This document shows positions 24,193 through 39,098 of a stretch of 39,759 nucleotides of DNA, one piece after another. A program made the translations under genes and the position numbers. The number at the start of each line of letters is the position of its first letter. Positions within the stretch are counted from its first letter, which is position 1. The notes under the pieces are model-generated. The model searched no databases, was not told the DNA's origin, and saw only the letters and a program-made list of their open reading frames with translations. Origin of the DNA: Erysipelotrichaceae bacterium (lineage in GTDB: Bacteria; Bacillota_I; Bacilli_A; Erysipelotrichales; Erysipelotrichaceae); NCBI GenBank assembly GCA_015058875.1, contig SVBN01000025.1, forward strand, positions 1 to 39,759. Reading direction: 5' to 3'.

Positions 24193-24420
24193 GAATTCGT
24201 TGAAGAAGACGAGTAGTACGGATCAGATGATCCAGAGAGCGGATGGAAGGTGAAAATCCGTGATTCTGCCGTATGAAGCTGCTTCGGAGAGTGCCCAATC
24301 CGCACCGTATCCGGCGTTAACGGACAATTAAGAGCGCATCTGAAACAGATGCGAATCAGGATGGTACCGCGCAGAAAGCGTTCCTGTGATATTTCACGGG
24401 AACTTTTTTATTGGAGGAGA
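24193..24420 (+). promoter_or_regulatory. T-box riboswitch controlling alaS
   Basis: The leader has T-box landmarks in order: AGTAGT and AGAGAGCGGATGG (stem I), a likely specifier GCT (Ala) in ATGAAGCTGC near 24275-24280, and the T-box core TGGTACCGCG (24362-24371). An intrinsic terminator follows, with stem GTTCCTGTGA/TCACGGGAAC (24380-24403) and six T. Uncharged tRNA-Ala would bind the specifier and the TGG side and favour the antiterminator, raising alaS expression. The Ala codon agrees with the downstream gene; exact stem boundaries were assigned by eye. Confidence 0.92.
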
Positions 24421-24427
24421 AAAGCTT

Positions 24428-27058
24428 ATGAAACAGTTAACCGGAAACCAGGTCAGACAGATGTTCCTGGATTTCTTCAAGTCAAAGGGCTGCATGGTGG
24501 AACCCGGTGCAAGCCTGATTCCGCATGATGATCCGACGCTGCTCTGGATCAACGCCGGCGTATCCGCGCTGAAGAAGTATTTCGACGGCACCGAGAAACC
24601 CGCCAGCAACCGTATCTGCAATGCCCAGAAATCAATCCGCACCAACGATATCGAGAATGTCGGCAAGACCGCAAGACACCATACGTTCTTTGAAATGCTC
24701 GGCAATTTCTCCATCGGCGACTATTTCAAGCAGGAAGCCATTCCCTGGGCATGGGAATTCCTGACCAGTCCGGAATGGATCGGATTTGATCCGCAGCGCC
24801 TGTATGTCACGGTTTATCCGGATGACAACGAAGCGTATGACCTGTGGGTAAAGGTCGGCATGAATCCGGCCCATATCCGCAGAACAGCCGACAACTTCTG
24901 GGAAATCGGCGAAGGTCCCGGCGGACCGGATACCGAACTGTATTATGACCGCGGCGAAAAATACGATCCGCAGGGCCTCGGTGAGAAGCTGTTCTTTGAG
25001 GATATTGAAAACGACAGATATATCGAAGTATGGAATATCGTATTCTCCCAGTACGACTGCCGTCCGGGTGAAATGCCCCGTTCCGAATACAAGGAACTGC
25101 CGCAGAAGAATATCGATACCGGCATGGGACTCGAGCGTCTGGTATGCCTGATTCAGGACGGCGAGACAAACTTCGATACCGATCTGTTCCTGCCGATTAT
25201 CCGCGCTGCCGAGAAGTATGCTAAGCATCCGTATTCCGATCCCGAATACAAGATGGCATACCGCGTCATTGCGGACCACATCAGAACCGTTACATTCGCT
25301 CTGGCCGACGGCGCCACATTCTCCAACGAAGGCAGAGGATATGTCCTGAGAAGAGTGCTCAGAAGAGCCGTCCGCTACGGCATCAAGCTGGGCATTGAGG
25401 GCAGCTTCATGTACCGTCTGGTAAAGGTTGTTGCGGACAACATGATCGATTTCTATCCGTATGTCCAGGAAAAGGTCAGCCTGATCGAACGTCTGGTTAA
25501 GACCGAGGAAGAGTCCTTCCACAAGACGCTGGTCAACGGCGAAGCGCTGCTGAACAATGAACTGGCAAAGCACGCCGATACAAAGACGCTGCCGGGTGAA
25601 GTTGTATTCCGCCTGTATGACACATACGGATTCCCGAAGGAGCTGACATCCGAGATTGCCGAAGACAACGGCTACCATGTCGATCTGGAAGGCTTCGAGA
25701 AAGAGATGGCCGAACAGAAGAGAAGGGCAAGGGAAAGCCGCGGTGAACAGCAGTCCATGGGCACGCAGTCCAAGGATCTGATGGACTTCACACAGGATTC
25801 CGTATTCCTCGGCTATACCGAAAAAGAATGCGAAGGAAAAGTCATCGGCCTGTTCAGGGACGGCGTCAGCGTCGACTTCCTGGAAGATGAAGGCGATGTC
25901 ATCCTCGATCAGACAGTCTTCTATGCCGAATCCGGCGGACAGTGCGCCGATACCGGTACATTGTCAAATGATTCCTTCAAAGCATTTGTTTCCGATGTCC
26001 GCAAGGCGCCGCACAAGCAGCCGATGCATCACATCGAGCATGTCGAAGGCACACTGAGCATTGGTGATACCGTGCATGCCGCGTATGATTTCGAACGCCG
26101 TGAAAAGACAAGGGCAAACCATTCTTCCCTGCATCTGCTTCAGTCAGCGCTGCGTCAGGTTGTCGGCAGCCATGTCGCTCAGGCCGGCTCCTACAACGGT
26201 CCGGATTACGCCCGTTTCGACTTCACGCATTATGAGAAAGTTACCGACGAACAGCTGAAGGAAGTTGAGCGTCTGGTCAATGAAATGATCCAGAAGAACG
26301 CCAAGGTTACAACCGAGGTCATGGATATCGAAGATGCGAAGAAGACCGGCGCGATCGCTCTGTTCGACGAGAAATACGGCGACAGCGTCAGAGTCGTCAC
26401 CATGGGTGATTTCTCCAAGGAATTCTGCGGCGGCACACATGTTTCCGAGATTTCCGAACTCGGCGTGTTCAAGATCATTTCCGAAGAATCCATCGGATCC
26501 GGCATCCGCCGCATCACCAGCAAAACCTCTCTTGCGGCATATGATGAATTCAAGCATGAAGAAGAATATCTGATCGAAACAGCGAAGATGCTGAAGATGC
26601 AGAACTGGAATACCCTGAAGGAGAGAATTAAGTCCCTGATGGAAGAAAATGCCGCGCTGAAAAAGGAAAACAGCGAGGCAAAGCAGAAGGCGCTTGCCGC
26701 AAATGCGGAAAATGCAGCCGACAACAGCGAAGACATCGGCGGTCTGAAGGTGCTCTTCCTGAATACGGACGGTATGGATTCCGCCGGTATGAAGAATTAT
26801 GCCGAACTGCTCAGAAACAAGAACGACGGAATCGTCTTCCTGAGCGCAACAGACGGCGAAAAAGTGACATTTGTCTGCGCCGCTTCGAAGGCAGCCATTG
26901 CGAAAGGCCTCAAAGCCGGCGATCTTGTCCGCAAAGCAGCGGAAGTATGCGGCGGTAAGGGCGGCGGACGTCCCGATATGGCACAGTCCGGCGGCAGAAA
27001 TCCGGAATCTGTACCGGAAGCTCTGAAGGCCGTACGTACACTCATTGAAAACGCCTGA
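24428..27058 (+). CDS. alaS: Alanyl-tRNA synthetase
   Basis: This 876-residue class II synthetase charges tRNA-Ala and edits mischarged Ser/Gly. The catalytic domain has FLDFFKSKGC, NAQKSIRTNDIENVGKT, HHTFFEMLGNFSIGDYFK and the GMGLERL motif 3. The editing domain has HSSLHLLQ and CGGTH (zinc ligands H-x3-H and C-x3-H). The C-terminal coiled coil and DHHA1-like GGKGGGRPDMAQSGG end are intact. The ATG at 24428 follows GGAGGA. It is controlled by the T-box. In Bacillus this gene is followed by ireB; here it is followed by the 9-kb insertion. Confidence 0.97.
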   Translation: MKQLTGNQVRQMFLDFFKSKGCMVEPGASLIPHDDPTLLWINAGVSALKKYFDGTEKPASNRICNAQKSIRTNDIENVGKTARHHTFFEMLGNFSIGDYFKQEAIPWAWEFLTSPEWIGFDPQRLYVTVYPDDNEAYDLWVKVGMNPAHIRRTADNFWEIGEGPGGPDTELYYDRGEKYDPQGLGEKLFFEDIENDRYIEVWNIVFSQYDCRPGEMPRSEYKELPQKNIDTGMGLERLVCLIQDGETNFDTDLFLPIIRAAEKYAKHPYSDPEYKMAYRVIADHIRTVTFALADGATFSNEGRGYVLRRVLRRAVRYGIKLGIEGSFMYRLVKVVADNMIDFYPYVQEKVSLIERLVKTEEESFHKTLVNGEALLNNELAKHADTKTLPGEVVFRLYDTYGFPKELTSEIAEDNGYHVDLEGFEKEMAEQKRRARESRGEQQSMGTQSKDLMDFTQDSVFLGYTEKECEGKVIGLFRDGVSVDFLEDEGDVILDQTVFYAESGGQCADTGTLSNDSFKAFVSDVRKAPHKQPMHHIEHVEGTLSIGDTVHAAYDFERREKTRANHSSLHLLQSALRQVVGSHVAQAGSYNGPDYARFDFTHYEKVTDEQLKEVERLVNEMIQKNAKVTTEVMDIEDAKKTGAIALFDEKYGDSVRVVTMGDFSKEFCGGTHVSEISELGVFKIISEESIGSGIRRITSKTSLAAYDEFKHEEEYLIETAKMLKMQNWNTLKERIKSLMEENAALKKENSEAKQKALAANAENAADNSEDIGGLKVLFLNTDGMDSAGMKNYAELLRNKNDGIVFLSATDGEKVTFVCAASKAAIAKGLKAGDLVRKAAEVCGGKGGGRPDMAQSGGRNPESVPEALKAVRTLIENA

Positions 27059-27066
27059 ATCAGATA

Positions 27067-27096
27067 AAAACAGGGGTGAGCTCTCATCCCTGTTTT
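27067..27096. terminator. Bidirectional terminator between alaS and the minus-strand HTH gene
   Basis: AAAACAGGGGTGAG and CTCATCCCTGTTTT form a nearly perfect 14-bp stem with a CT loop. A on one side and T on the other mean it can stop transcripts from both directions. Confidence 0.88.
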
Positions 27097-27097
27097 C

Positions 27098-27424
27098 TTA
27101 ACGGCTCCGCCATTTCTTCAGCGCCCGATACAGCGTGCGCTCCGGTATTGAGAAATGCTCCGAAGTATCTTTGATCGTATGACTGCCGGCATATTTCAGC
27201 ACTTCTTCTTTTTTCTGATCGATATAGGAGATTCTGCCGGCGTGACGGTTTGTCGTACGGATATATGCGGAAAAATCAGACCGGATTTCCAGCAGGGAAT
27301 GATTCTCATCCATCGTCTGCAGCGAACATGAAATCCCGATCCTGTTGAGCAGGCTGTTGAGTTCCGCCGTCTGTACCTGATCCTGTTCCGTATTCTGAAT
27401 GACAAAAGTAATATATTCTTCCAT
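27098..27424 (-). CDS. Small protein with C-terminal helix-turn-helix
   Basis: The 108-residue protein has an unrecognised N-terminal domain (about residues 1-65, alternating beta/alpha pattern starting MEEYITFVIQN) and a C-terminal HTH-like stretch (IKDTSEHFSIPERTLYRALKKW, residues about 83-104) of the resolvase/AsnC size class. The coding start has no clear ribosome site, and a 28-base palindrome lies only three bases upstream of the ATG. An autoregulatory DNA-binding role is plausible. The gene lies downstream of the larger tandem-HTH regulator on the same strand, separated by about 60 bases. Confidence 0.6.
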   Translation of the reverse strand: MEEYITFVIQNTEQDQVQTAELNSLLNRIGISCSLQTMDENHSLLEIRSDFSAYIRTTNRHAGRISYIDQKKEEVLKYAGSHTIKDTSEHFSIPERTLYRALKKWRSR

Positions 27425-27427
27425 AGG

Positions 27428-27455
27428 ATACTGCCATATTTAATTATGGCAGTAT
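27428..27455. repeat. 28-bp perfect palindrome upstream of the small HTH gene
   Basis: ATACTGCCATA and TATGGCAGTAT are perfect 11-base arms flanking TTTAAT. On the plus strand it is followed by TGTTTTT (terminator-like). On the minus strand it directly precedes the start codon at 27424. It may be an operator, a terminator for antisense transcripts, or both. Confidence 0.7.
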
Positions 27456-27484
27456 TGTTTTTGAAATGGAAGACCCTGAAGGAA

Positions 27485-29188
27485 TTAACGGCCGGAGCTG
27501 AAGCGAAGGAACAGCTGGGCGGCGTAGTTTTCAAATGCCCGGATCATCAGCGGATGGGAAACGGTGAACAGAGCAGGGCGGGCTCCGGTATAGATGATCT
27601 GTACATTCGTCTCATTGATGGCAGCCGTTACATTGGCAAACAGCGGACGCGGCAGAAAGACAAAGCGGCTGTCCGGCCGTGTATCCATCAGTTCCTCAAT
27701 ATGTCTTACATAACGCTCATATTGTTCCTGCGTATAACTGACGGCTGCACATCCCGGCATATTTTCTGTATGCATTGTCATGTCCCGGCTGCCTGCGGGG
27801 ATGAATTCCATGTACGGTCCGCTTTCAAGCTGTTTTTCCAGCAGCGGTGCGGTGATTTTCCGGAAAGCGGATATCTGAGCCCCAAGCTCATCCGCGAGAT
27901 CCTGCGGCATGGAAGAAACGGGAAGGGCGCTGCGGATCCAGGTATGCCCGGTGATTTCTTCCGCACGGAAAGAACGGCTGACGCTGATCAGCGGTTTTGT
28001 CTGCTTTTTCAGCATCCGGAAAGTTTTTTCGCAGCGGGTCAGTTCCTCCGGATCATCAATCCACGCATAGCTGCCTTCCGCTTCCGTACCGGGCACATGG
28101 AATGCCTGTATGGCCGCGACCCCGGGCATGACAAACAGTGTATGTGAAAAACGGGGATTTCTTTCGGATGTGCAGTAAAACGATTCCACCATGCCGCTCA
28201 TATACAGCGGCAGCCAGCCGGTGATGGCCGCGTTCATTTCAGCCAGACTGCGGTCAATATTATGGATGATTGTAATACCTGTGCCGTTATGAACAGCCGC
28301 GTTCATCAGAATACCCCAGTTTCTGAGAAAGACAGGATCCCCGGTCATCCATTCCATATCCTGATCGGAATACAGCAGAAGCTGCGGTGCTTTCCGGCGG
28401 TATGCCAGGGAAAGAAATCTCAGCACAGCTTCCCGCAGTCCGCTGTATCCGCAATACGTACCGCCCTGATGCTCCGTGTCAAATGAAATCTCCGGTACCG
28501 GCAGTAAGAAATCCTCATATCTGTCCAATACTTCGAGCAGGTTTTCCGCCGTCTGCGATTGGGAAGATGATGATTCATCCCGGGCAAAGAGCCACTGTGA
28601 AAACACGCTTCCGGACAGTTCATCTTCTGGGACAGACAGTATGCGGGCAAGTTCTTCCGTTCTGTTCATCCGTACGGTCTGATCCCACAGGACTGCGCAG
28701 AGCCTGGCTGAACTGTGGGAATCCTGGCGGGGAGTGCGGGCCCCGCTGCGGTAGCGGCTGATCAGGGAAGAGTCGGTATAAAGCAGACGGCTCAGCCTTG
28801 CATTGGTCAGCTCCAGCAGATTCATAACCGCATCGAGCTTTCTGCCGAAAGACTGTTCCGGAATACCCGCAGTGCCGGGTGCCTGCCGCTCAGGCGTCTC
28901 ATTCTGATCTTCAAACAGATACAGCTGCAGTTTCCGGAGCGCTTCTTCTTTTCCGGTGTTTTCCGGAAGATCCAATGCCGCAGAAAGTGCATCCAATCTG
29001 TTTTTCTTCAAAGCAATCATATAAAGGGCGTGCACAAGTTTTTCCGAAGCCGCTCCGTCTTGTTTCGGGACTCTTGCGCCGCTGAGAAAACGGCTGATAT
29101 TAGTGCGGTCAAATCCGGCATATCCGGCTGTTTCAGACCCGGAAGCTTCCAGCAGATCCATCAGCTGCCTTAATCTTTCTGAAAACAT
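27485..29188 (-). CDS. Tandem-HTH transcriptional regulator with large C-terminal domain
   Basis: The 567-residue protein contains two related DNA-binding modules. The first lies near residues 1-60 (FDRTNISRFLSGARVPKQD) and the second near 112-165 (YTDSSLISRYRSGARTPRQD). Each has an I-S-R-x-x-S-G-A-R-x-P-x-Q-D core, an internal duplication. The remainder (about 215-567) is an alpha/beta domain (GYSGLREAVLRFLSLAYR, LLLYSDQDMEWM, GITIIHNIDRS) that I do not recognise; it could sense a ligand. There is no membrane helix. GGAGG stands nine bases before the ATG. It is divergent from the six-gene cassette, with a cluster of TGACA-type inverted repeats between, so it probably controls that cassette and itself. 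Confidence 0.75.
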   Translation of the reverse strand: MFSERLRQLMDLLEASGSETAGYAGFDRTNISRFLSGARVPKQDGAASEKLVHALYMIALKKNRLDALSAALDLPENTGKEEALRKLQLYLFEDQNETPERQAPGTAGIPEQSFGRKLDAVMNLLELTNARLSRLLYTDSSLISRYRSGARTPRQDSHSSARLCAVLWDQTVRMNRTEELARILSVPEDELSGSVFSQWLFARDESSSSQSQTAENLLEVLDRYEDFLLPVPEISFDTEHQGGTYCGYSGLREAVLRFLSLAYRRKAPQLLLYSDQDMEWMTGDPVFLRNWGILMNAAVHNGTGITIIHNIDRSLAEMNAAITGWLPLYMSGMVESFYCTSERNPRFSHTLFVMPGVAAIQAFHVPGTEAEGSYAWIDDPEELTRCEKTFRMLKKQTKPLISVSRSFRAEEITGHTWIRSALPVSSMPQDLADELGAQISAFRKITAPLLEKQLESGPYMEFIPAGSRDMTMHTENMPGCAAVSYTQEQYERYVRHIEELMDTRPDSRFVFLPRPLFANVTAAINETNVQIIYTGARPALFTVSHPLMIRAFENYAAQLFLRFSSGR

Positions 29189-29214
29189 AAAAGCAATCCT
29201 CCGAAAAAACAGAC

Positions 29215-29253
29215 GTCACAGTTTCAGGTGTGACATGAATGGTGTCATTGACA
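29215..29253. promoter_or_regulatory. Operator-like cluster of inverted TGACA repeats, with a -35 box
   Basis: Within 39 bases there are GTCACA-N8-TGTGAC (29215-29234), TGACA-N7-TGTCA (29231-29247) and the perfect palindrome TGTCA-T-TGACA (29243-29253). The last contains TTGACA (29248-29253), a consensus -35 box for the plus-strand cassette, though the matching -10 (ATATCG, 29271) is poor. The repeats share a half-site and lie between two divergent start codons. Confidence 0.65.
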
Positions 29254-29327
29254 ATTGGGATGGCACGCGGATATCGGCCGGCAGAATTTTTACAATAAAA
29301 ATATACCATGAATCAGCGGAGGTATAT

Positions 29328-30023
29328 ATGCCTGTACAATATGCAGAAAACAAAATGCAGTCCGCAGATGATTTCCTGTTTCAGGAAGATGAATCCGGAC
29401 AGAATATGACGGAACCCGTGAGCACTCCCGAAGTGTCGGAACAGAAGGCGGTTCCTTTGCGCTGGGTTTATGAACAGCCGATGATGAAGAGTTTTTTCCT
29501 GCTGTTTGAAGTCTGGAAAGCAATGGGGCTGACCGGTGCTATTCTGATTCTCTTTATGATCATGATCAATCTGTTCTCCGGCCAGGGACTCTCAGGCATT
29601 ATCGGTGCAGTCGGGATCGGTCTTCTTGTCTGCGGCATACTTCTGGTGCTGTCCCTGCCGGCATACTGGATTGTGACAAAGGCAAACAACGGCATGTATA
29701 CAGTTCTTTTTGAAATGGACGATGAAGGCGTGGATCATATTCAGATCAAAACCGAAAAGGCAAAGGCGCTGGATATCCTGACAATTGCGGCCGGAATCAT
29801 CTCAAAGAACAGATCGGTTATCGGTTCCGGACTGATATCCGCATCCGGTGCATCGTTATATTCACGCTTTTCGGATATCAGAAAAATCCGGGCGTATCCG
29901 GATAAGAATCTCATCACGCTGAAAGGAAGATTTATGACCAATCAGGTATATGCGGATGATGAGGAATTCGGAGATATTCTCGATTTCATTCTCGATCATT
30001 GCCCCGATGCGGAAATCGGTTAA
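29328..30023 (+). CDS. Cassette gene 1: two-helix membrane protein, YcxB-like tail
   Basis: The 231-residue protein starts at 29328 with GGAGG five bases upstream. It has an acidic N-terminal cytoplasmic segment (residues 1-50), two membrane helices (about 67-85 and 89-114) and a cytoplasmic domain with MYTVLFEMDDEGVDHIQIKTEKAKA and SRFSDIRKIRAYPDKNLITLKGRF. That last pattern resembles YcxB-like or PH-like domains; the resemblance is weak. It is the first gene of a six-gene unit (spacing to the next: 22 bases) and is divergent from the tandem-HTH regulator. Confidence 0.65.
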   Translation: MPVQYAENKMQSADDFLFQEDESGQNMTEPVSTPEVSEQKAVPLRWVYEQPMMKSFFLLFEVWKAMGLTGAILILFMIMINLFSGQGLSGIIGAVGIGLLVCGILLVLSLPAYWIVTKANNGMYTVLFEMDDEGVDHIQIKTEKAKALDILTIAAGIISKNRSVIGSGLISASGASLYSRFSDIRKIRAYPDKNLITLKGRFMTNQVYADDEEFGDILDFILDHCPDAEIG

Positions 30024-30045
30024 ACCGGTTCGGGAGGTAAAGCAG

Positions 30046-31068
30046 ATGGCTGCCAGAAACAGAATCTGTCCGGTATGCGGAAATAAGGCTGCTCCGGACG
30101 CAAAATTCTGCATGAAGTGCGGGACCCGTTTTGAGGAAGAAAAGATAAAACAGGAAGTCCGGATGTGTCCCTCCTGCGGAGCGGAAGTGAAAGATGATGC
30201 GAGGTTCTGCCTGAAATGCGGCGCTTCACTTGTATCAAAGAAGAAAGAAAAAAGACCTTTAAAGACTGCGGTGCCATCCACGCCGAAACCCTCCGTGATT
30301 CCCGCTGGGATTGCGGCAGGGAAGCGTATTGCGGCTATGGACAGTGCCGGTGAAATGGATCTCGGTGATGCGGGCGGTTTTTCTGCCGGTATTTCTTCGG
30401 ATATGAACCTGTCGGGCTCTGCGGCAGAAAAGACGGGGAAGGTATATTCCCCGATCAGCGGACTGCTGCACTGCCTCGGTTCATACGCCCGAGGTCTTTT
30501 CACCATGCCTGCAAAGCCGAAAGTACTCCTGTTTTCACTTATGATGGCCGGAATCTGGACGGTGCTTGCCATGCTGAAAAACAGCGGATCGGAAGCTGTG
30601 GAGTTTCTTTCCTGGCTGACATTTGCGGAAGGCGGGCTGAACCGGGAAGGAGCGGGAGTGATCGGCGGAATACTCGGAAAGGGGTGCACGGCCGTACTGC
30701 TTTCCACACTGTTCAGCGGCGGCTTTGCCAATACTGCGAAAGGAATCGGATCTTTGTTCCGCAATGAAGGGAAGGGAAGTCTTATCGGAACATTGCTTGG
30801 CATCATAACCGGCGCATCGGCGTGTCTTTGTTTCATGGGAATCGATACCGCATCCGCGTCTTCCTCCATGGCAGGCATTTCCGGCGCCCTGCTTTGCCTG
30901 CAGGCGATCGGAAGAAAAGACGGAAATCTGTATCAGCTGGCGGAGTCTCTGACTTCACGGAAAATCAGCGGTCTGCGTTCGGCACGGCCCGGAAAGGCGA
31001 AAAGCCTGCTGTCCGGTATTTCCATGGGATTTATCCTGATGACGGCAATCGCCGCAATCGGCGTATGA
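30046..31068 (+). CDS. Cassette gene 2: double zinc-ribbon membrane protein
   Basis: The 340-residue protein starts at 30046 (GGGAGG upstream). Two zinc ribbons lie at the N-terminus: CPVCGNKAAPDAKFCMKCG and CPSCGAEVKDDARFCLKCG (four Cys each). A low-complexity linker follows. Then come about five hydrophobic segments from residue ~163 (VLLFSLMMAGIWTVLAML, AVLLSTLFSGGFA, SLIGTLLGIITGASACLCFMGI, and a C-terminal GFILMTAIAAIGV). Topology suggests that the ribbons are in the cytoplasm. Zinc-ribbon membrane proteins of this general kind are common and uncharacterised. It ends 11 bases before the large gene. Confidence 0.75.
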   Translation: MAARNRICPVCGNKAAPDAKFCMKCGTRFEEEKIKQEVRMCPSCGAEVKDDARFCLKCGASLVSKKKEKRPLKTAVPSTPKPSVIPAGIAAGKRIAAMDSAGEMDLGDAGGFSAGISSDMNLSGSAAEKTGKVYSPISGLLHCLGSYARGLFTMPAKPKVLLFSLMMAGIWTVLAMLKNSGSEAVEFLSWLTFAEGGLNREGAGVIGGILGKGCTAVLLSTLFSGGFANTAKGIGSLFRNEGKGSLIGTLLGIITGASACLCFMGIDTASASSSMAGISGALLCLQAIGRKDGNLYQLAESLTSRKISGLRSARPGKAKSLLSGISMGFILMTAIAAIGV

Positions 31069-31079
31069 AAGGAGTGCAT

Positions 31080-34000
31080 ATGAAAGATTACAGAGCAATC
31101 ATGCAGAGATGTCTTCGTGCGCTTCCGGCTGCACTGCTTCTGTCGTGCACGCTGATCATGCCTTTTGCGGCCGTCAGAGCCCGTGCGGAACAGGAGCGTG
31201 TTTACCAGGTCATCTCGGATACCATGCCGTTCGGGGAAACATACATATATAAAGACGGCTATATGTCCTATTCCGAAAAGAGAGGTTCGGTGGACTGGAT
31301 GCTGGAAGCGATGTGTCTGGAACCATGGGATCTGAAAATCGTGCAGGAAAACAGCACGCCGGAAGCATCTTCATTCTACAGAACAGTGGATGAACGCGTT
31401 TACCGCGGTCATCTCAGCGAAGGGGATACACTGCGCTCTTCCGCATCTATCAACGGAATCAACGGCTTTATCAGTACGCACGCCATAGTCTATTTCGGCA
31501 GCGGAAATGATTTTGAATACAGAATCAGTTCGGAAAATGATTATAACCTGATGGACGCGGCAGACGGCGATTCGGTGGACAGCACCGCCACGAAGTCATG
31601 GACTGTTTTTAACGACTATACCGTTGAAAAGGGCGTTAAAAAGGTTGTTGTCTTTATTCATCATGACGGCGACTTCAGAGGACGTACGGTGACAACGGAT
31701 GATGCATATATGAATATCCGCTTTGAATTCACCGTGGATAAAGTCAGTCAGTCGGTGACGGAAACAGCGGATGACCGGCCGGGAGAGGACTCCGGTACCG
31801 GTATCATCGATGAAATCATCGATGATTCTGATGATCCGGATCTTATCGGACCGATTGCCGTGAGCTTCGGCGGAGCAGCCGCCGCTGCCGCCGCAATTGC
31901 CTCGGGCAGTTCCCGGGACAAAGGCGGAGATGCAAAGTCCTCCCGGAAAGAAAAGAAAAAAGCATCCCGTTACAGGATGTATGTCTATAAAAACTTCGGC
32001 AATGCAATCAGGAAAGACGGAAAACCTGTAACCGTCGGTGCCCGGATTGCGGAAATCGATGAAAACAACAAAGAAATACCGAGGAATGATCTGACAAAGC
32101 ATATTCAGGTATTCTCGGAAGACGATACCCTGAACGTCAAAGACGGCGGGATGAGCGGCAGATACAGGAACGCTCTGGCAACTGCGGAAAAGAACAGTGA
32201 ACTTCATGAAGGAACGGTATCCTTCCGATATACCGGCGAAGGCGGGACATTCACAAAGAATGTTGTATTCCGTCTGGTCGATGAAGTGCAGATCGTTTTC
32301 CCTGCCATGAATGAAGAGGGCAGATGGATTGCCAATGCAAATCTGAACGAAACGGACGTCATTGCCGGAATGAAAGGCCGTACAAAACTGCGCTTCATGT
32401 TTATGGATGCCGTGGAAGAACCGGAACAGATTACTTTCAGCAACACCACCGGATTCGGTATTACTGCCGTAAAAGACAGCGAATATGCATATACATATTG
32501 GGCGGAGATTGAAAACCGGAAGCGGGAAATACAGAAGGAAGCCGGTATCTTCGCAGACATGAAGACGCAGAAAATCGGTATTCATGCTGTCTTTCCGGAT
32601 CATACCGCCGTCACAAACGAATTCATAATCAATATCTGGCCTGAGGGAATCTCCGTGCCGATGGAAGATCAGAAAGACGGATATATTGAGATGTGCACGG
32701 TGCCGGATGAAAATGCCGTCGGCAGCGCAAAGATACCGCCTGCCATGTTCAATGTATATGTATGCCGCATGAACGGTGAGGAAGCAGTCGTTCAGAAGAA
32801 TCCGGGCATGACATGGAACGGATTCTATGACGACGGAAAATACGGAAATACATTCAAACAGCACTTCCCGTGGAAAATATACGGCGGAGCCGGTATTTCC
32901 ATCTATGCGTTCAACACGCTTCCGGTCATTATTGATCCGTATTACTCCTGGATGATTCTGAAATATGAGGAAGCCGGATACAAAGCGGAAGAAAAGCTTC
33001 CGTTCCGCATGACCGGCATCAAACCGGACCTGCCCAGCCTTGCCCGGAAGGAAGCCGCGCTGAAGAAGCTTAAGCGGGCAATTGAAATATACGGACTCGG
33101 TTCGGACCCCGATCTCAGAAATGCCCTCAGGAACGCCCCGAATATGTCCGGTGCGGACATTGAACATCTGTGCTATCAGCTGCTGCTTGCGGGCAGAACG
33201 TACTATGAAGCAGACAGCGAAGAATTCGCTTCGATCGATGCCGTCATGACAAGATATATCGTCGTGGCTTCCTCGATGGTCGCAGTCGGTGACAAGGCTG
33301 TCGAATATGCAATCCAGCTGTACTGGCCGAATGCGCCTGCTGACCTGATCGCGGCCTTTGCCAATCCGTTCAAGAATGCAATGGCGGAATATCTCGGACA
33401 GTATGTTGCCAGATGGTCCTGGGTGGATCTGACCGAAGGCGGTAATATTGAAGAATTTGCGTTCATGAAAACGCTGATCAGCAGCTCCAATGAAACGCTG
33501 AGTGCAATCATTACCGGCGAAAGAGAAGTACATCCGAAGGTGCTGGGACAGATTGTCTCGCTGTATCTGATGCTGAGCTATGCGAACCATTATTTCTATG
33601 GAGAAGGAGAAGAAAAAGGTGATATTTTCAAATCCGTTATGGCTGCTCTCGGCGATCTGACGCTGACCAAATTCAAACAGTTTATCGGAAATCAGATCAA
33701 GGATCTGAACAAGAAGCTGTTTGCCAAGATCGGAAACTACGCCGGAAAACTGCTGTCGGACCAGCTCAGGAAAGGATATCAGGCAAAAGCGGATACCGCC
33801 GGACTGAATGTCTTCATGCAGTATGTACGCGGTTCCTACAATGCATCCGGAAAGCTTACCAATGAAGGATTCAAAGCCGCGAATGCAGCCAAGGATTCCC
33901 TGAAATCCGAGTACATGAAAGGTGCTGAAAAGGCGATTGAGGAGACGGTGTCTCAGGCAGCGGAAGCTGCGGATATTGCCATTGCCCAGCTGCTGAACTA

Positions 34001-34451
34001 TCTGTGCGGCGGAACGCTGGATGAAAATGACGCTCTCGGAGTACAGACACATGAAGTCGAAGCAGGATACATCATTGACCGTTCCGGCAGAACCGCACGT
34101 CTCCTTGCCCGCGGCTTCAAAAAATGCTTTGGCATCGATGTTGAAAAAGCATACGAAGACACGGTAAAAGCGCTGGAAATCTCGGTAAGGCTGGACGGCG
34201 CATATCTCATCATAAAGATGTTCGGCTATTGCGTGGAAATTAATTATATCGATAATTTCGAAGCGCTGTTCCAGGTGATCTATGATGAAATGTTCAGCTG
34301 GATGGAAGTATTCTGGACAGACAGAATCCATGCGGAAACGGGATACGATCCCAGAGATGAAATCACCGACGATACTTCGCTGCTGGAAGTTCAGAAAGAG
34401 CATATGGAGAAACTGGAAAAATCAGTCAATATCACTTATTACGGAAAATAA
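31080..34451 (+). CDS. Cassette gene 3: large exported/membrane-anchored protein
   Basis: The 1123-residue protein (ATG at 31080, AAAGGAG) has a signal peptide ending near ARA-EQ (residues 1-36) and an extracytoplasmic domain of about 210 residues. An acidic linker (DEIIDDSDDPD) follows, then an A/G-rich helix (IAVSFGGAAAAAAAIASG, about 255-273) followed by a lysine-rich stretch (RKEKKKASR). If that helix spans the membrane, the remaining ~830 residues lie in the cytoplasm. This part begins YRMYVYKNFGNAIRKDGKPV, has beta-rich repeats to about 640, then becomes mostly helical. I recognise no enzyme motif. It is the largest protein of the cassette and probably its scaffold. Confidence 0.75.
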   Translation: MKDYRAIMQRCLRALPAALLLSCTLIMPFAAVRARAEQERVYQVISDTMPFGETYIYKDGYMSYSEKRGSVDWMLEAMCLEPWDLKIVQENSTPEASSFYRTVDERVYRGHLSEGDTLRSSASINGINGFISTHAIVYFGSGNDFEYRISSENDYNLMDAADGDSVDSTATKSWTVFNDYTVEKGVKKVVVFIHHDGDFRGRTVTTDDAYMNIRFEFTVDKVSQSVTETADDRPGEDSGTGIIDEIIDDSDDPDLIGPIAVSFGGAAAAAAAIASGSSRDKGGDAKSSRKEKKKASRYRMYVYKNFGNAIRKDGKPVTVGARIAEIDENNKEIPRNDLTKHIQVFSEDDTLNVKDGGMSGRYRNALATAEKNSELHEGTVSFRYTGEGGTFTKNVVFRLVDEVQIVFPAMNEEGRWIANANLNETDVIAGMKGRTKLRFMFMDAVEEPEQITFSNTTGFGITAVKDSEYAYTYWAEIENRKREIQKEAGIFADMKTQKIGIHAVFPDHTAVTNEFIINIWPEGISVPMEDQKDGYIEMCTVPDENAVGSAKIPPAMFNVYVCRMNGEEAVVQKNPGMTWNGFYDDGKYGNTFKQHFPWKIYGGAGISIYAFNTLPVIIDPYYSWMILKYEEAGYKAEEKLPFRMTGIKPDLPSLARKEAALKKLKRAIEIYGLGSDPDLRNALRNAPNMSGADIEHLCYQLLLAGRTYYEADSEEFASIDAVMTRYIVVASSMVAVGDKAVEYAIQLYWPNAPADLIAAFANPFKNAMAEYLGQYVARWSWVDLTEGGNIEEFAFMKTLISSSNETLSAIITGEREVHPKVLGQIVSLYLMLSYANHYFYGEGEEKGDIFKSVMAALGDLTLTKFKQFIGNQIKDLNKKLFAKIGNYAGKLLSDQLRKGYQAKADTAGLNVFMQYVRGSYNASGKLTNEGFKAANAAKDSLKSEYMKGAEKAIEETVSQAAEAADIAIAQLLNYLCGGTLDENDALGVQTHEVEAGYIIDRSGRTARLLARGFKKCFGIDVEKAYEDTVKALEISVRLDGAYLIIKMFGYCVEINYIDNFEALFQVIYDEMFSWMEVFWTDRIHAETGYDPRDEITDDTSLLEVQKEHMEKLEKSVNITYYGK

Positions 34452-34470
34452 AAAAAGCGGGAGGGGAATC

Positions 34471-34956
34471 ATGATCAGACGAATCATAATGACGGCACTC
34501 TGTGCTTTGCTTGTCTCAGCCGGCACGGCCTGCTCGTCAAAACCGGATAATATGCCGTATGAACCGGACACGCCGGAACCTGATGCGCATGCCGGACTGT
34601 TTGTTTCGGAATACGGAACGATGGAATTCAGTGGGGACGGTGAATCCGTCACCATTGATTTCTCAGACGAACTTGCGGAACTCAGCGGACTGCCCTCAGG
34701 CAGGCATGAAGCAGCCTATGTGTTTCTCAGCGGCGATCTGCCGCCCCACGGCAGTATGCCGGTCCGCTACGATACGGCGCATGAGCTGAAGATTACGGTG
34801 GATGATGTATCTTCCGTGATCGATATGGCAATCGTCGCAGAAGACGGCAAAGCGTATCTCGGCGTCGGAACGGTAACGCCGGAAAAGATTCCGATGCTGT
34901 TCCGGTCGGAAGAAAGCTATATTCCGGCTGTGTTTGAAAAACAGAAAGGAGATTAA
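34471..34956 (+). CDS. Cassette gene 4: probable lipoprotein
   Basis: The 161-residue protein begins MIRRIIMTALCALLVSAGTAC, a hydrophobic signal ending in Cys21. The lipobox (G-T-A-C) is not ideal, but the Ser-rich polar start after the Cys fits lipidation. The mature part is acidic, with a beta-type pattern (GTMEFSGDGESVTIDFSDELAEL, HELKITVDDVSSVIDMAIV). No known family recognised. GGGAGGGG stands four bases before the ATG; the next gene begins two bases after its stop. An external, membrane-tethered location is likely. Confidence 0.65.
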   Translation: MIRRIIMTALCALLVSAGTACSSKPDNMPYEPDTPEPDAHAGLFVSEYGTMEFSGDGESVTIDFSDELAELSGLPSGRHEAAYVFLSGDLPPHGSMPVRYDTAHELKITVDDVSSVIDMAIVAEDGKAYLGVGTVTPEKIPMLFRSEESYIPAVFEKQKGD

Positions 34957-34958
34957 TC

Positions 34959-35852
34959 ATGGCTGTATATTGTCCCGAATGCGGGCGGAAGCTGCCCGAT
35001 GAAGCGGAATTCTGCGATAACTGCGGCACCAGAATACCGAATATGAAACAGCCGGAGAAACAGACATTCCATGAAACGGCAGGAAAGAAAAAACCAGGTA
35101 CCGGAAAAAAGGTTCTGATGTTTCTCGGACTCGGCTCTCTTGCAGCAATGCTGTACGGAGGATATCAGGAATTGATGGATGACGGCGCCGGTCCGACGGA
35201 AAAACCGGTACAGACAATTACGCATAACACGGAGAACAGCTCCGGAAAAACAGACAGCAATACACCGGTCAAGCCGGCAGAGACACAGCACAGACCGGCG
35301 GAAACAGATAAAGAGACAGCTCAGAACGGAGATAATACCCAGTCTGTACCGCAGGAAGCTGTCAGTGCACCGGCTGACGGAGATATTTCACAGGGATTTG
35401 AACCCCTTGGAAACGTCTGGTTTGATGATTTCCTGTTCTACGAAGACGATGTTTATGAAAACGGTATTCCGGATGGTGCTCTCATGCGGGAAGCAGGATA
35501 TATCAGCGGTGAATGGAAATACTGTCTCACATTCAACCGGACCCTGGAAGGGGAAGAGCGGATCGATGAGATCGGCACGGCCGAGGTATCCTTCGGGGAA
35601 AATGCGGCACAGCTGATTCTGCATCCCATGTATATCCGCTATTCTGATGAAGTCATTCCGGAAACGGACGAGGAAGTCGGATATGAACCGTTTGCGGGAG
35701 AATGGGACCCGGAATATATCGATGTCAATGACGGCAGGATCTTTATCGGCATCGGACCGTATTATTCCCTGAATGATACGGATTACGCACTCGGCAATAT
35801 CGTTGTGAAAGATTCCGGCATGTTCGGTGATTTCCTTATGGTGCGTCCATAG
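34959..35852 (+). CDS. Cassette gene 5: zinc-ribbon, one-helix, ectodomain protein
   Basis: The 297-residue protein has an N-terminal zinc ribbon (CPECGRKLPDEAEFCDNCG), a basic stretch (KKKPGTGKK), one membrane helix (VLMFLGLGSLAAMLYGG, about 51-68), a Thr/Pro/Glu-rich spacer to ~145, and a C-terminal globular domain (EYISGEWKY-like region with GYISGEWKYCLTF and late DGRIFIGIGPYY). The arrangement places the zinc ribbon inside and the C-terminal domain outside. The ectodomain has a plan similar to the lipoprotein encoded just upstream (short acidic beta-type domain), but I cannot claim homology. AAAGGAG overlaps the previous gene's end. Confidence 0.7.
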   Translation: MAVYCPECGRKLPDEAEFCDNCGTRIPNMKQPEKQTFHETAGKKKPGTGKKVLMFLGLGSLAAMLYGGYQELMDDGAGPTEKPVQTITHNTENSSGKTDSNTPVKPAETQHRPAETDKETAQNGDNTQSVPQEAVSAPADGDISQGFEPLGNVWFDDFLFYEDDVYENGIPDGALMREAGYISGEWKYCLTFNRTLEGEERIDEIGTAEVSFGENAAQLILHPMYIRYSDEVIPETDEEVGYEPFAGEWDPEYIDVNDGRIFIGIGPYYSLNDTDYALGNIVVKDSGMFGDFLMVRP

Positions 35853-35860
35853 GAGGGTGT

Positions 35861-36157
35861 ATGAAGCGGTTTCAATCATATGCGGAGCTTGTAACGGAAG
35901 CTTCAAAGCTGTGCAATGTCTGGCGTGATATTCAGGGAAAACCGGTCACAATCCTGGAGCTCGTTGATTCCGCCGGCAAAAATCCCGATCTGACATATCC
36001 GCAGTCCTATGTTCTTTCCGAAGAAGGGGCAATCGGTGCAGCAGACCGGTATGAATATACTGCAGCATGGATCCTTGTGCCGATGGAAGACTGTGAAGAA
36101 AAGGAAATCCTGACGGAGAAAATCACGGCGTATTTCCGGCATGCCGCACAGCAGTAA
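35861..36157 (+). CDS. Cassette gene 6: small acidic cytoplasmic protein
   Basis: The 98-residue protein has no signal or membrane helix. It reads as one compact alpha/beta domain (SYAELVTEASKLCNVWRDIQ, VTILELVDSAGK, YEYTAAWILVPMEDCEEKE). AGGAGG stands before the ATG, eight bases after the preceding stop, so it belongs to the cassette operon. I recognise no family. No clear terminator follows; about 135 bases separate it from ireB. Confidence 0.6.
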   Translation: MKRFQSYAELVTEASKLCNVWRDIQGKPVTILELVDSAGKNPDLTYPQSYVLSEEGAIGAADRYEYTAAWILVPMEDCEEKEILTEKITAYFRHAAQQ

Positions 36158-36292
36158 ATCTTCTTTCCATGCAATATGAAACGGGCAGAGTGATCTCAAT
36201 GAAACCTTAAAGAGTGAAACTGTTTTGTGAAACATTTTTCATATACTTTTCGATTTGTTTGGGATAAAATAACTTCAAAGGAGGATAGGAAT
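36158..36292 (+). promoter_or_regulatory. Gene-free spacer between cassette and ireB, likely containing the ireB promoter
   Basis: TATACT (36242-36247) and a TAAAAT-like element (36265-36270) are candidate -10 boxes; neither has a convincing -35. AAAGGAGG (36278-36285) is the ireB ribosome site. No terminator for the cassette is visible. Confidence 0.35.
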
Positions 36293-36556
36293 ATGGCAGG
36301 AAATGACATTTCTCCAACGGTTAGTTTTAATGCGGATGAATTAAGACGTCAGAATATTTCCAAGGTTCTGCAGCTTGTGCAGGAGGCTCTGGAAGAACGC
36401 GGATACAATGCAATCAATCAGCTTGCAGGGTATCTGATCTCCAATGATCCGGCTTATATCTCAAGCCACAAGAATGCCCGCGGAATTATTCAGTCCGTTG
36501 AACGTCATGAAATTATTGAAGAGCTTGTCCGTTTCTATCTGGAAGAACACCAGTAA
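36293..36556 (+). CDS. ireB: IreB-family (UPF0297) regulatory phosphoprotein
   Basis: The 87-residue protein is a clear UPF0297/IreB member: TVSFNADELRRQNISKVLQLVQEALEERGYNAINQLAGYLISNDPAYISSHKNARGIIQ. In Enterococcus, IreB is phosphorylated by the PASTA kinase IreK and affects cephalosporin tolerance. The N-terminal Thr in ISPTVSF fits the phosphorylated region described there. I start at 36293, not at an upstream in-frame ATG (36227), because of AAAGGAGG and the family start. Its usual neighbour ruvX (yrrK) does not follow. Confidence 0.93.
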   Translation: MAGNDISPTVSFNADELRRQNISKVLQLVQEALEERGYNAINQLAGYLISNDPAYISSHKNARGIIQSVERHEIIEELVRFYLEEHQ

Positions 36557-36575
36557 GCCGGATGATGTTTTTCAT

Positions 36576-36660
36576 GGTGCCGGAAAGGCACCGGAATGCG
36601 GTGACACGTATTTCATTTTTTGAATGACGAAAGAAAGGCGTGAGTAACATCCGCCTTTTG
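36576..36660 (+). terminator. Two hairpins between ireB and the DUF1292 gene
   Basis: GGTGCC/GGCACC (36576-36592, GGAAA loop) is followed by AAAGGCG/CGCCTTT (36634-36658), which runs into TTGTTT. The second can act as a terminator or attenuator. ruvX, expected here in Bacillus-like order, is missing; nothing coding is seen in 36557-36677. Confidence 0.55.
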
Positions 36661-36677
36661 TTTGTGAGGTGAATTTT

Positions 36678-36938
36678 ATGGATGACAGACAGATTATACT
36701 GACAGGTGACGACGGAAAGGAATTTGTATTCGACATTCTCTTTACATTTGATGATGAAAAGGGAAACCAGTTCGTTCTGGTCACCGATCCCGAAGATGAA
36801 GAAGGCAATGTCTACGCCTTCCGCTATGACGATGAAGGCGAGCTCTATGAAGTGGACGACCCGGAACAGGCGGAGATGTGCGCGGAAGTACTGAGCGCGT
36901 TTGTCAGCGAGGAAGAGGAAGCAGATGGCGAAGCGTAA
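36678..36938 (+). CDS. DUF1292 (UPF0473/YrzB) family protein
   Basis: The 86-residue acidic protein matches DUF1292: ILTGDDGKEFVFDILFTFDDEKGNQFVLVTDPEDEEGNVYAFRYDDEGELYEVDD. Function is unknown, but the gene travels with ireB and mltG across Bacillota. ATG at 36678 has GAGGTG seven bases upstream. Its end overlaps the mltG start by 14 bases. Confidence 0.9.
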   Translation: MDDRQIILTGDDGKEFVFDILFTFDDEKGNQFVLVTDPEDEEGNVYAFRYDDEGELYEVDDPEQAEMCAEVLSAFVSEEEEADGEA

Positions 36939-37998
36939 GCGCAGAAAGCTGAAGCTCGGAAGAATTCTGGTCATCATTCTGGTGCTTCTGCTGGGGGCAG
37001 CCGGACTGATGTACCGTAGCTATCAGAAAGCTTTGAAGCCGGTGAGCAGCGAATCTCAGAATGTGCTCTTTACGGTCAGCGCCGGCGAGAATGCGAAAAA
37101 GGTCTGTGAAAATCTGGAAGCGGCGGAGCTGATCAATGACAGCGGCTGGAGCTATGTCTATGTCAGGCAGAACAAGCTCAGCGATGTCAAGGCCGGAGAA
37201 TATCTGCTGGATCCTTCCTGGGATACCGATCAGATTTTCAAAACGCTGAACGATCCGCTTGCGGCAATCGTGGATGAAGGCGTCGTTACCATTATCGAAG
37301 GCGACTGGATCAAGCACATCGCTTCCAAGATCGCTTCGGAAACGGAAGTAAAGGAAGAGGATCTTCTGAATCTCTGGAATGATGAGAAATACATCCGTTC
37401 CCTGATGGACCGCTATCCGTTCCTGAGTGAGGACATGTTTGACAAAGATGTGCGCTACCTGCTGGAAGGATATCTTGCCCCGAATACCTACAGGTTCTTC
37501 CGTGATACCACGGCGGAAGAGGTAACGGAAAAGATTCTTGATGAAACGCTGCGTGTCTACAATGAATTTGCGGCCGATATGAAAAAATCAAAGCTTTCCG
37601 TTCATGAGCTGTATACCCTGGCAAGCATCGTCCAGTATGAATCCGGACTCCCGGAAGATATGAAGAAGATTGCCGGTGTATTCTATAACCGTATGGATGC
37701 GGATATGCCGCTGCAGTCCAGCGTAACGGTATGCTACGCCATCGATCTGGAGTCTTCGGAAAACTGGCAGGCGTGCGAGATGAATCCGACATTCGATTCC
37801 CCGTACAACACCTATAAGTATTCCGGACTTCCACCCGGACCGATTGAAAACCCGGGCAGGGAAGCACTGGATGCGGTGCTGCATCCGGCAAAGCATAAGT
37901 ACTATTTCTTCATGGCGGAGGTATACGGAGACGGAACCGTCCATTACGCCGAAACCCTGGAAGAACATGAAAAGAACGTTGAGAAGTATCTGAAATGA
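36925..37998 (+). CDS. mltG: Endolytic murein transglycosylase MltG
   Basis: The 357-residue protein has a basic cytoplasmic start, one membrane helix ([17 protein letters not shown], about 13-30), a LysM-like region and the YceG domain. MltG cleaves nascent glycan strands at the outer membrane face, setting strand length. The catalytic Glu aligns with E in [11 protein letters not shown]. coli has LxxxxEKET, where the second Glu (E218) is catalytic, and it is retained here while the first is Gln. [29 protein letters not shown] and [10 protein letters not shown] follow. The start overlaps the DUF1292 gene. The last codon region overlaps the next ORF by four bases (ATGA). Confidence 0.95.
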
Positions 37999-39098
37999 TC
38001 TGCTCGACATTGTGCTATCTCAGAAGAGGCAGAGAATGGCTGATGCTGCTGAGAAACAAAAAGCAGAATGACATCAACGAGGGAAAATGGATCGGCGTCG
38101 GGGGAAAGATAGAGGCCGGCGAGGATCCCGAGACATGCATACGCCGGGAAATCCGGGAAGAAACCGGATATGAAGCAGGAACGCTGAAGCTGTCCGGGAT
38201 GCTGGATTTCTATTACCAGGGAGCGGAAAGCGAACGGATCTGGGTCTATGAATGCCATGATTTCAGCGGACAGGAAACCGACTGCCCGGAAGGCACGCTG
38301 AAATGGATTCCCCGGGAAGAGATACTGTCGCTGAATCTCTGGGAAGGCGACCGTCTGTTCCTGAAGGAAATGCTGGCAGAAAGCAATGAGCAGTTCCGGC
38401 TCAGGCTGGAATATGATTCCGAAGGGAATCTGATATCAACGCAGAATCTGAAAACGGAGGAAGGTATGAACAAGCCTATTATCATCGGTATCGCCGGAGG
38501 CAGCGCTTCCGGAAAAACAACGATTGCAAGAAGGATTCAGGAAACATTTTCCGACCGGAAATCGGTGCTGATCATCCGCCAGGATGACTACTACAAGGAT
38601 CAGTCGCAGAAACCGATGGAAGAGCGGATCAAGACAAACTACGACCATCCGTTTGCCTTTGACAATGATCTGCTTGTCGCCCATATCCATCAGCTGCTGG
38701 AAGGTCATCCGATCGAAAAACCGACCTACGACTTTGTGCATCACACCCGCTCCGATGTGACGGAGCTGTGCAATCCGGCGGACGTCATCATTCTTGAAGG
38801 TCTGTTTGTTCTGGAAAATGAAGAGCTGCGGGATCTCGAATCAATCAAGATCTTTGTCGAGACAGCTTCCGATATCCGTTTCATCCGCAGACTGCTCAGG
38901 GATGTCAACGAGCGCGGCAGAACGGTGGACTCTGTTGTCAGCCAGTACGTCGATACCGTGCGCGTCATGCATGAACAGTTCATTGAACCGACCAAGCGCT
39001 ATGCCGATCTGATCATTCCGGAAGGCGGCTCCAACAATGTTGCGGTCGATCTGCTCGTGACAAAAATCAGTAGCATCATACATCACTCGATGTTATAA
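37995..39098 (+). CDS. udk: NUDIX hydrolase fused in frame to uridine kinase
   Basis: One open frame of 367 residues encodes a NUDIX domain (residues 1 to ~155) and a complete uridine kinase (158-367). The Nudix box GKIEAGE...REIREETGY is intact and the domain resembles MutT/MutX 8-oxo-dGTP diphosphatases. The kinase has Walker [29 protein letters not shown] and IILEGLFVL; it makes UMP/CMP from uridine/cytidine. An internal ATG at 38466 with GGAGGAAGGT upstream would give a normal 210-residue Udk, so both a fusion and a free kinase are possible. The frame begins inside the mltG stop (ATGA). udk and greA are adjacent in many Bacillota. Confidence 0.9.
38455..38468 (+). promoter_or_regulatory. 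Internal ribosome site and start codon for free uridine kinase
   Basis: ACGGAGGAAGGT lies just before the ATG at 38466, within the NUDIX-udk frame. The match to anti-Shine-Dalgarno is strong and the spacing is normal, favouring independent translation of Udk. Confidence 0.7.

Follow-up and report, generated by a model that had tools for sequence, protein, structure and literature searches.

The sequence analysed here (the window) is a 39,759-bp stretch of an Erysipelotrichaceae genome, contig SVBN01000025.1 of assembly GCA_015058875.1, numbered C50 within a draft genome that totals 3.03 Mb. Its subject is a cassette of six plus-strand genes, termed P1 to P6 in order, with a divergent gene for a helix-turn-helix (HTH) protein and an operator-like dyad to their left (Table 1). 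All six frames at 29328–36157 were open, the intergenic gaps were 22, 11, 19, 2 and 8 bases, and a purine-rich ribosome-binding site was visible in the sequence before each gene. An earlier note on this DNA had recognized the six tight genes with gaps of 2–22 bases, in agreement with our inspection; the extent that it gave was right for the six genes but missed the HTH gene and the dyad. Pfam and the sequence also bore out its description of P2 as a double-ribbon multi-helix protein (Zn_Ribbon_1, 6.4e-17; several hydrophobic helices) and of P5 as a protein with one zinc ribbon (5.7e-9), one helix and an ectodomain. P3 had the expected 1123 residues with a signal segment and an internal helix (residues 255–273), and P4 was confirmed by eye as lipoprotein-like, its signal ending in GTAC. 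That the genes span cytoplasm, membrane and outside is supported as a reading, the genes being a conserved co-located set.

No Pfam match over the cut-off was obtained for P1, P3, P4 or P6, and no enzyme family passed the cut-off for P1–P6 in Pfam or NCBIfam. Scans of the six proteins against NCBIfam, PHROGs and PADLOC gave ribbon-type or weak matches only; with PADLOC, those of P1, P2 and P6 had E 0.0076 or worse and P3–P5 had none. The claims that the cassette has no recognisable enzyme motif and no recognised counterpart thus stood in Pfam, NCBIfam, PHROGs and PADLOC, where P2 and P3 matched no named family beyond zinc ribbons. Against PDB sequences, no profile of P1, P2, P3, P4 or P5 reached an E value below 0.096; the search with the single P3 sequence was empty, and a P3 profile of 11 relatives gave a single match at E 1.7. 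The pN/pS ratios of P1–P5 homologues were 0.09–0.58 in 42 pairwise comparisons, of which close pairs weigh most and those with window sequences have synonymous sites near saturation. By these ratios, the P1–P5 homologues are under purifying selection. The comparison genomes were drafts or single assemblies, and absence at a contig end was therefore given no weight.

Table 1. Positions of the cassette genes, the putative operator and the flanking genes in the window
Feature	Position	Strand	Basis or remark
Divergent HTH regulator, 567 aa	27485..29188	-	XRE-like N-terminus; homologues in the same divergent place
Operator-like dyad	29230..29266		Half-site common to 8/8 HTH-cassette loci
P1, 231 aa, two transmembrane helices, then a presumably cytoplasmic C-terminal domain; lacks the N-terminal zinc ribbon	29328..30023	+	
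P2, 340 aa, two zinc ribbons, then multi-helix membrane domain	30046..31068	+	Pfam; homologues directly upstream of P3
P3, 1123 aa, signal segment, ~220-aa ectodomain, one helix, lysine-rich segment, ~850 aa read as cytoplasmic	31080..34451	+	
Codons of P3 internal helix, residues 255–273	31842..31898	+	Flanking net charge
P4, 161 aa, lipoprotein-like in the window	34471..34956	+	
P5, 297 aa, zinc ribbon, one helix, linker, ectodomain	34959..35852	+	Sequence, Pfam, alignment
P6, 98 aa, small protein	35861..36157	+	One homologue, 62% identical, directly after G241 P5
alaS (alanyl-tRNA synthetase), left flank of insertion	24386..27058	+	Pfam tRNA-synt_2c 2.3e-194
ireB, right flank of insertion	36293..36556	+	Pfam IreB 3.4e-32

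It was found that alaS and ireB lay 9.2 kb apart in the window, with the cassette between them. Matches to ireB were present in 62 of 70 congeneric genomes, and 29 loci were examined besides the window. The end of alaS was 64–232 bp before ireB in 26 of these 29 loci and 1,236 bp before it in one, and no alaS was found within 1.5 kb in the remaining two. The site was also empty in four relatives whose cassette sits elsewhere (G208, G225, G210 and G197). The cassette was therefore added between alaS and ireB. No repeat pair at the insertion ends was found among the repeats listed for 26900–36700, and the GC content of the island (0.48–0.53) was within the range of the window. The two loci with no alaS within 1.5 kb before ireB, L093 and L100 (G226 and G165), perhaps carry other insertions at this site. 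A 108-aa small HTH-like protein was observed on the minus strand at 27098–27424, between alaS and the HTH gene (HTH_28, 9e-5, below the cut-off), and may belong to the insertion; a 12-pair hairpin with a T-run was seen at 27427–27456.

The HTH protein has an XRE-like N-terminal helix-turn-helix and, by eye, a second HTH-like stretch near residues 113–170. Its Pfam HTH_31 score was 21.1 bits, below the cut-off of 27, and a wide profile of the protein matched repressor-type HTHs among PDB sequences at E 0.0039 and worse. The C-terminal domain of ~320 aa matched no family in the searched libraries; D275, D284, H309, R313 and E317 were among the residues invariant across 14 aligned sequences. In G208, G225 and G210 the corresponding divergent position was occupied by homologues with 36–39% identity to the window's protein, and a relative also faced P1 or a variant cassette in G241, G243, G216 and contig C12 of G202.

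The 139-bp divergent intergenic region of the window contained a nearly perfect dyad of 37 bp, GTGAC-N8-TGTCA-T-TGACA-N8-GGCAC. The half-site CAWTGACA-N8-GGCAC was present in all eight examined divergent regions facing P1 or a variant cassette, namely the window and the seven loci listed above, of which G208 and G225 are near-identical. After base-by-base shuffling of the eight regions, 0.00005 half-sites would be expected per set. The left arm, GTGMC, stood 6–8 bases before the dyad centre in seven of the eight loci, G241 having the centre and right arm only; at two of the loci, G241 and G202 contig C12, P2–P3 was absent. Two sites of the half-site type were found in the window at ≤1 mismatch (0.11 expected), and the only exact match in the 3.03-Mb genome was at 29246–29266. 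When 42 hand-chosen genomes of the genus were scanned with the reversed pattern as the control, 37 matches were obtained in 23 genomes, 8 of them inside the eight divergent regions. The locus thus combines an HTH domain, albeit with weak scores, and a conserved dyad in a divergent intergenic region. It resembles XRE-type repressors in the N-terminal HTH, the divergent gene and the dyad between; it differs from those with an extra domain in the weak HTH scores and in a C-terminal domain that matches no library family. TTGACA in the dyad was considered as the −35 box of P1; the idea was given up on seeing (by eye) that in G210 the TAAAAT-like sequence is ~37 bases off.

Relatives of P3 were sparse. 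Counting the own genome each time, they were found in 2 of 195 sampled genomes of the family by single-sequence search; a profile search of the order gave 10 of 315 genomes, the same profile 2 of 392 genomes in a sample of the phylum, and a wider profile 5 of 395 genomes in a sample of the class. Two close relatives of the window's P3, in DFIS01000039.1 and JAFUCL010000086.1, lie on contigs of G197 and G210, which belong to the genus of the window. P2 was directly upstream of P3 or fused to it in 10 of the 14 P3 loci examined (the window, G210, G197, G208, G225, G455, G773, G714, G763 and G139). In G455, G773, G714 and G763, P2 was matched by a profile of the five P2 sequences of the genus at E 1e-27 to 4e-8, and the P2 and P3 genes overlapped by 4 bases. 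In G139, both were joined in a 1261-aa ORF, whose residues 30–157 matched a second-round P2 profile (E 2e-6) and whose remainder was P3. P2 of G714 and G763 had no ribbon, and the pair can thus do without one. Apart from these loci, in G036 and G105 (L026:2488–6979 and L027:4388–8879) an 811-aa P3 relative starting MKQRRGFVTNSSSTN was observed after a radical-SAM/SPASM gene, an arrangement that is possibly a peptide-modification variant of the system.

The pair was not fixed to the other four genes. In the window P2–P3 lies between P1 and P4, in G208, G225 and G210 it follows P5, and in other families it was found without the base genes. P1, P4, P5 and P6 in turn were present without P2–P3 in G241. 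The earlier view of one indivisible six-gene apparatus was therefore not supported, as P1/P4/P5 occur without P2–P3 and P2–P3 without them, in varying order. Independent scattering, which the earlier note had named as a refutation of its view, was seen between the base genes and P2–P3, while P2 and P3 remained paired in ten of the 14 loci. The cassette is a composite of a base set P1/P4/P5/P6 and a separate P2–P3 unit.

P2–P3 of G455 and G773, which belong to different families (f19 and f6), showed 98.4% DNA identity over 3,959 bp. The shared stretch stopped ~150 bp before P2 and on the other side reached the contig end. Judged by this identity, P2–P3 was exchanged recently between the two families, unless one bin is contaminated. 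The genes around the pair are not the same in the two genomes. Beside P2 of G773 there were a DpnII restriction-modification set and a T5orf172 protein, whereas P2 of G455 had PDC-M33B/A candidates at ~2–5 kb and the C-terminus of a type I restriction subunit at ~7 kb. A distance of 0.7 kb separated P2–P3 of G714 from a DUF234 ATPase (PDC-S27), and in G763 a RhuM-family fragment was 0.1 kb away. A 182-bp stretch just upstream of G455 P2 shared 90% identity with the final part of a Lamin-tail/Big_3 surface-protein gene of G773 (L038:4093–4272 and L035:11754–11934).

The internal helix of P3 is preceded by 25 residues with a net charge of −10 and followed by 25 with +6. Among 14 P3 homologues, 12 had an N-terminal hydrophobic segment (internal in G139, where it comes after P2) and a second helix, and in all 12 the net charge was higher after this helix than before it, the weakest being G203 (−2, 0) and G763 (0, +2). 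These charges suggest that P3 would expose ~220 residues outside the cell and keep the last ~850 inside. We also considered that P3 might have a membrane-inserting hairpin, but dropped the idea, the hydrophobic stretch near residue 737 being borderline.

The description of P1 as a two-helix protein held in the window. In G210, G208 and G225, P1 opens with a complete N-terminal zinc ribbon, which the window P1 lacks. Because 6 of 15 aligned P1 sequences matched the ribbon model and the ribbons of two more (L060 and L061) were partly decayed, the absence was read as loss, and the window P1 is most likely a former zinc-ribbon protein. The P1 model built from two sequences had a mean pLDDT of 49.5; with this low-confidence model, Foldseek returned 93 PDB matches at E≤10 and none at E≤0.001, several of them weak and PH-like, which were not relied on. 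The P4 homologues of G210, G208 and G225 had an N-terminal helix without the cysteine. P6 was at first thought unique to the window, which was ruled out when the 315 genomes yielded, in addition to the window's own copy, one homologue that immediately follows P5 in G241.

Two further observations were made in G210. A 53-aa remnant of the P5 ribbon (L010:4163–4324) stood before an inserted 891-aa gene and showed 83% DNA identity over 100 bases to the intact P5 gene; recombination may use stretches that code for ribbons as seams. At L005:12752–14485, a 577-aa zinc-ribbon protein, a paralogue of the 891-aa one, formed an in-frame fusion with an almost complete KptA/Tpt1 RNA 2′-phosphotransferase (PF01885, 6.9e-43). 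The junction looks like a deletion at a short shared sequence or an assembly chimera.

Among known systems, TcaA of Staphylococcus aureus is described in the available text of PMC10328498 as having a zinc finger inside, one membrane helix and an ectodomain, and that of PMC10611510 gives tcaB (efflux) and tcaR (MarR) as its partners. P5 has the same layout of ribbon, one helix and ectodomain, with the facing of each part inferred. However, the NCBIfam TcaA model gave P5 only 16.9 bits, confined to residues 5–45, against a cut-off of 550, and no counterpart of tcaB or tcaR was found among P1–P6 in the Pfam scan. In the YdjFGHL group of Bacillus subtilis, PspA stands with zinc-ribbon membrane proteins including YdjG and YdjL, according to the available text of PMC11237479. 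The likeness is that more than one ribbon-bearing protein occurs per operon, as far as that text goes; the difference is that no PspA, band-7, TPM, YpeB-like, YdjH-type, LiaF or Toastrack match was found in P1–P6 with Pfam. Candidate systems of PADLOC (PDC-M33, PDC-S27 and PDC-S57) were near P2–P3 in three genomes of the class, but P2 and P3 themselves had no credible match.

The YcxB family has a PH-like fold. Aligned by hhalign with 12 YcxB (PF14317) relatives, the P1 profile reached a probability of 49.5 (local) or 57.1 (global), five controls scoring 1.7 or less. No Pfam YcxB match was found for P1 at E≤1 or in the window's genome, and YcxB was not among the best 25 of 56 families for the 15 P1 sequences. 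P1 may be a distant YcxB-like protein, the comparison being suggestive only.

In the titles and abstract beginnings listed for the literature on TcaA, zinc-ribbon gene neighbourhoods, zinc-ribbon defence, and Erysipelotrichia or Solobacterium zinc ribbons, no description of the cassette was found. P2–P3 is called undescribed because neither this search nor the scans of Pfam, NCBIfam, PHROGs and PADLOC gave a description. The locus would thus be an HTH-controlled mobile membrane cassette, which is a known kind, built round an undescribed pair.

As the genes and their relatives are arranged, the locus is probably a horizontally mobile, self-regulated membrane cassette. Its likeliest use, surveillance of the envelope and protection against outside attack by phage, bacteriocin or antimicrobial, is put forward tentatively, at somewhat less than even odds. 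Envelope protection and phage/bacteriocin defence are the two leading options, and sequence cannot separate them. From its position and conservation, the HTH protein would bind the dyad, repress the operon and release it on a signal. P2 with its many helices and P3 with its ectodomain, helix and large cytoplasmic part would form one membrane complex, because the two are fused in one relative, adjacent in most, encoded by overlapping genes and transferred together. By their layout, the ectodomains of P3, P4 and P5 may monitor the surface of the cell, whose state may be relayed inward by the cytoplasmic ribbons together with the large inner part of P3. The sequence itself supports three points: the divergent HTH gene faces the operon across a conserved dyad, the base set P1/P4/P5/P6 is combined with the independently moving P2–P3, and the whole was inserted between alaS and ireB.

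Several results weigh against this reading. No structural match was obtained: the P3 model from three sequences, with a mean pLDDT of 30.8, was too poor for use, and the value for P1 was 49.5. Four of the 14 loci (G046, G036, G105 and G203) showed no P2 next to P3, which rules out a P2-like gene upstream of every P3. The ORF upstream of P3 in G046 was partly masked and gave E 0.09 with the P2 profile; the radical-SAM/SPASM gene and a gene for a zinc-knuckle multi-helix protein preceded P3 of G036 and G105, with no significant P2 match; in G203 no P2 match was found beside P3. P3 of G036 and G105 also had no signal segment, one N-terminal helix and the opposite charge sign. In view of these features and the upstream radical-SAM gene, the topology may not hold family-wide. 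The zinc ribbon was missing from P1 in many relatives and so cannot be essential to P1. As for the vehicle of movement, no P3 relative was found in phage and plasmid records or IMG/VR; the G455 version had no match in phage, plasmid or IMG/VR sequences, nor the G763 version in IMG/VR.

The half-site raises a similar point. In the 42 genomes, 29 matches lay outside the cassettes against 3 for the reversed control, and the forward pattern is thus commoner than the control even there. No cassette gene was found within ~1.5 kb of the 15 outside matches that were examined. Of these, 13 were inside an ORF of ≥150 aa, which is uninformative because the window's own site meets the same loose criterion in an alternative long P1 frame. 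The half-site was also absent from other HTH relatives (L063 and L075–L078), and from G242 contig C38 (L066) and G202 contig C8 (L065), though there the HTH gene faces a small ribbon protein.

As an alternative, P2–P3 could be a new two-gene anti-phage or anti-bacteriocin unit, in which P2 anchors P3 in the membrane and a trigger sets the cytoplasmic helical part of P3 to work on the membrane or on some other target; we regard this as possible if somewhat doubtful. The defence-like genes near P2–P3 in G773, G455, G714 and G763, the near-identical copies in two families and the sparse presence in the order argue for it. The neighbours were, however, hand-picked as defence-like, with 9 of the 10 submitted to PADLOC matching strongly; since they were picked by eye, the neighbourhood is a lead and no count. 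Ten other hand-picked neighbours within the order (G208, G225, G210, G197 and G046) had no strong PADLOC match (best E 2e-4); that check left out the window, G036, G105, G139 and G203. Nor was there a credible PADLOC match for P1–P6 or an effector motif, the hydrophobic stretch near residue 737 of P3 being borderline. A narrower form, which we consider unlikely, would make P2–P3 a two-component membrane-anchored defence unit with an outside sensor, a cytoplasmic effector of ~850 residues and a multi-helix holder, moving alone among Bacilli defence islands and captured in this genus under the operator of the zinc-ribbon cassette.

An envelope-stress sensor-responder like TcaA or YdjG/YdjH, in which ribbon proteins would detect damage to the wall or membrane and alter the envelope in response, without a role in defence, is likewise possible at a rather low probability. 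The layout that P5 shares with TcaA and the comparable layout of YdjG (PMC11237479, available text) point to it, together with the weak TcaA profile match. But the similarity does not extend beyond the ribbon region, a housekeeping stress system would not usually be so patchy and mobile, and no PspA, LiaF or Toastrack-type domain was matched in the six proteins. That the genes form a surface or contact apparatus for adhesion or export, with a slot for a large protein (P3 or the 891-aa zinc-ribbon protein) as its interchangeable business end, seems improbable, because the large part of P3 reads as cytoplasmic and no ATPase or secretion family passed the cut-off in the six proteins. The decay of the P1 ribbon and the 53-aa P5 remnant in G210 would suit chance neighbours in a decaying island, which is nevertheless a very remote explanation given the purifying selection on P1–P5 and the operator-like dyad common to the loci.

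Apart from the cassette, a NUDIX domain and a uridine kinase were found fused in one open frame at 37995–39098 of the window, reading through the apparent start and ribosome-binding site of the kinase.

If the mobile, self-regulated membrane cassette is read correctly, proteins that have had no name, or none beyond zinc ribbon, would become a bounded unit that can be tested. Three things would make the function testable: the two-gene core P2–P3, whose passage between bacterial families seems very recent, an exact candidate operator, and natural versions of the cassette with and without the core. They would thereby reveal the role of membrane zinc-ribbon proteins in gut Bacillota.

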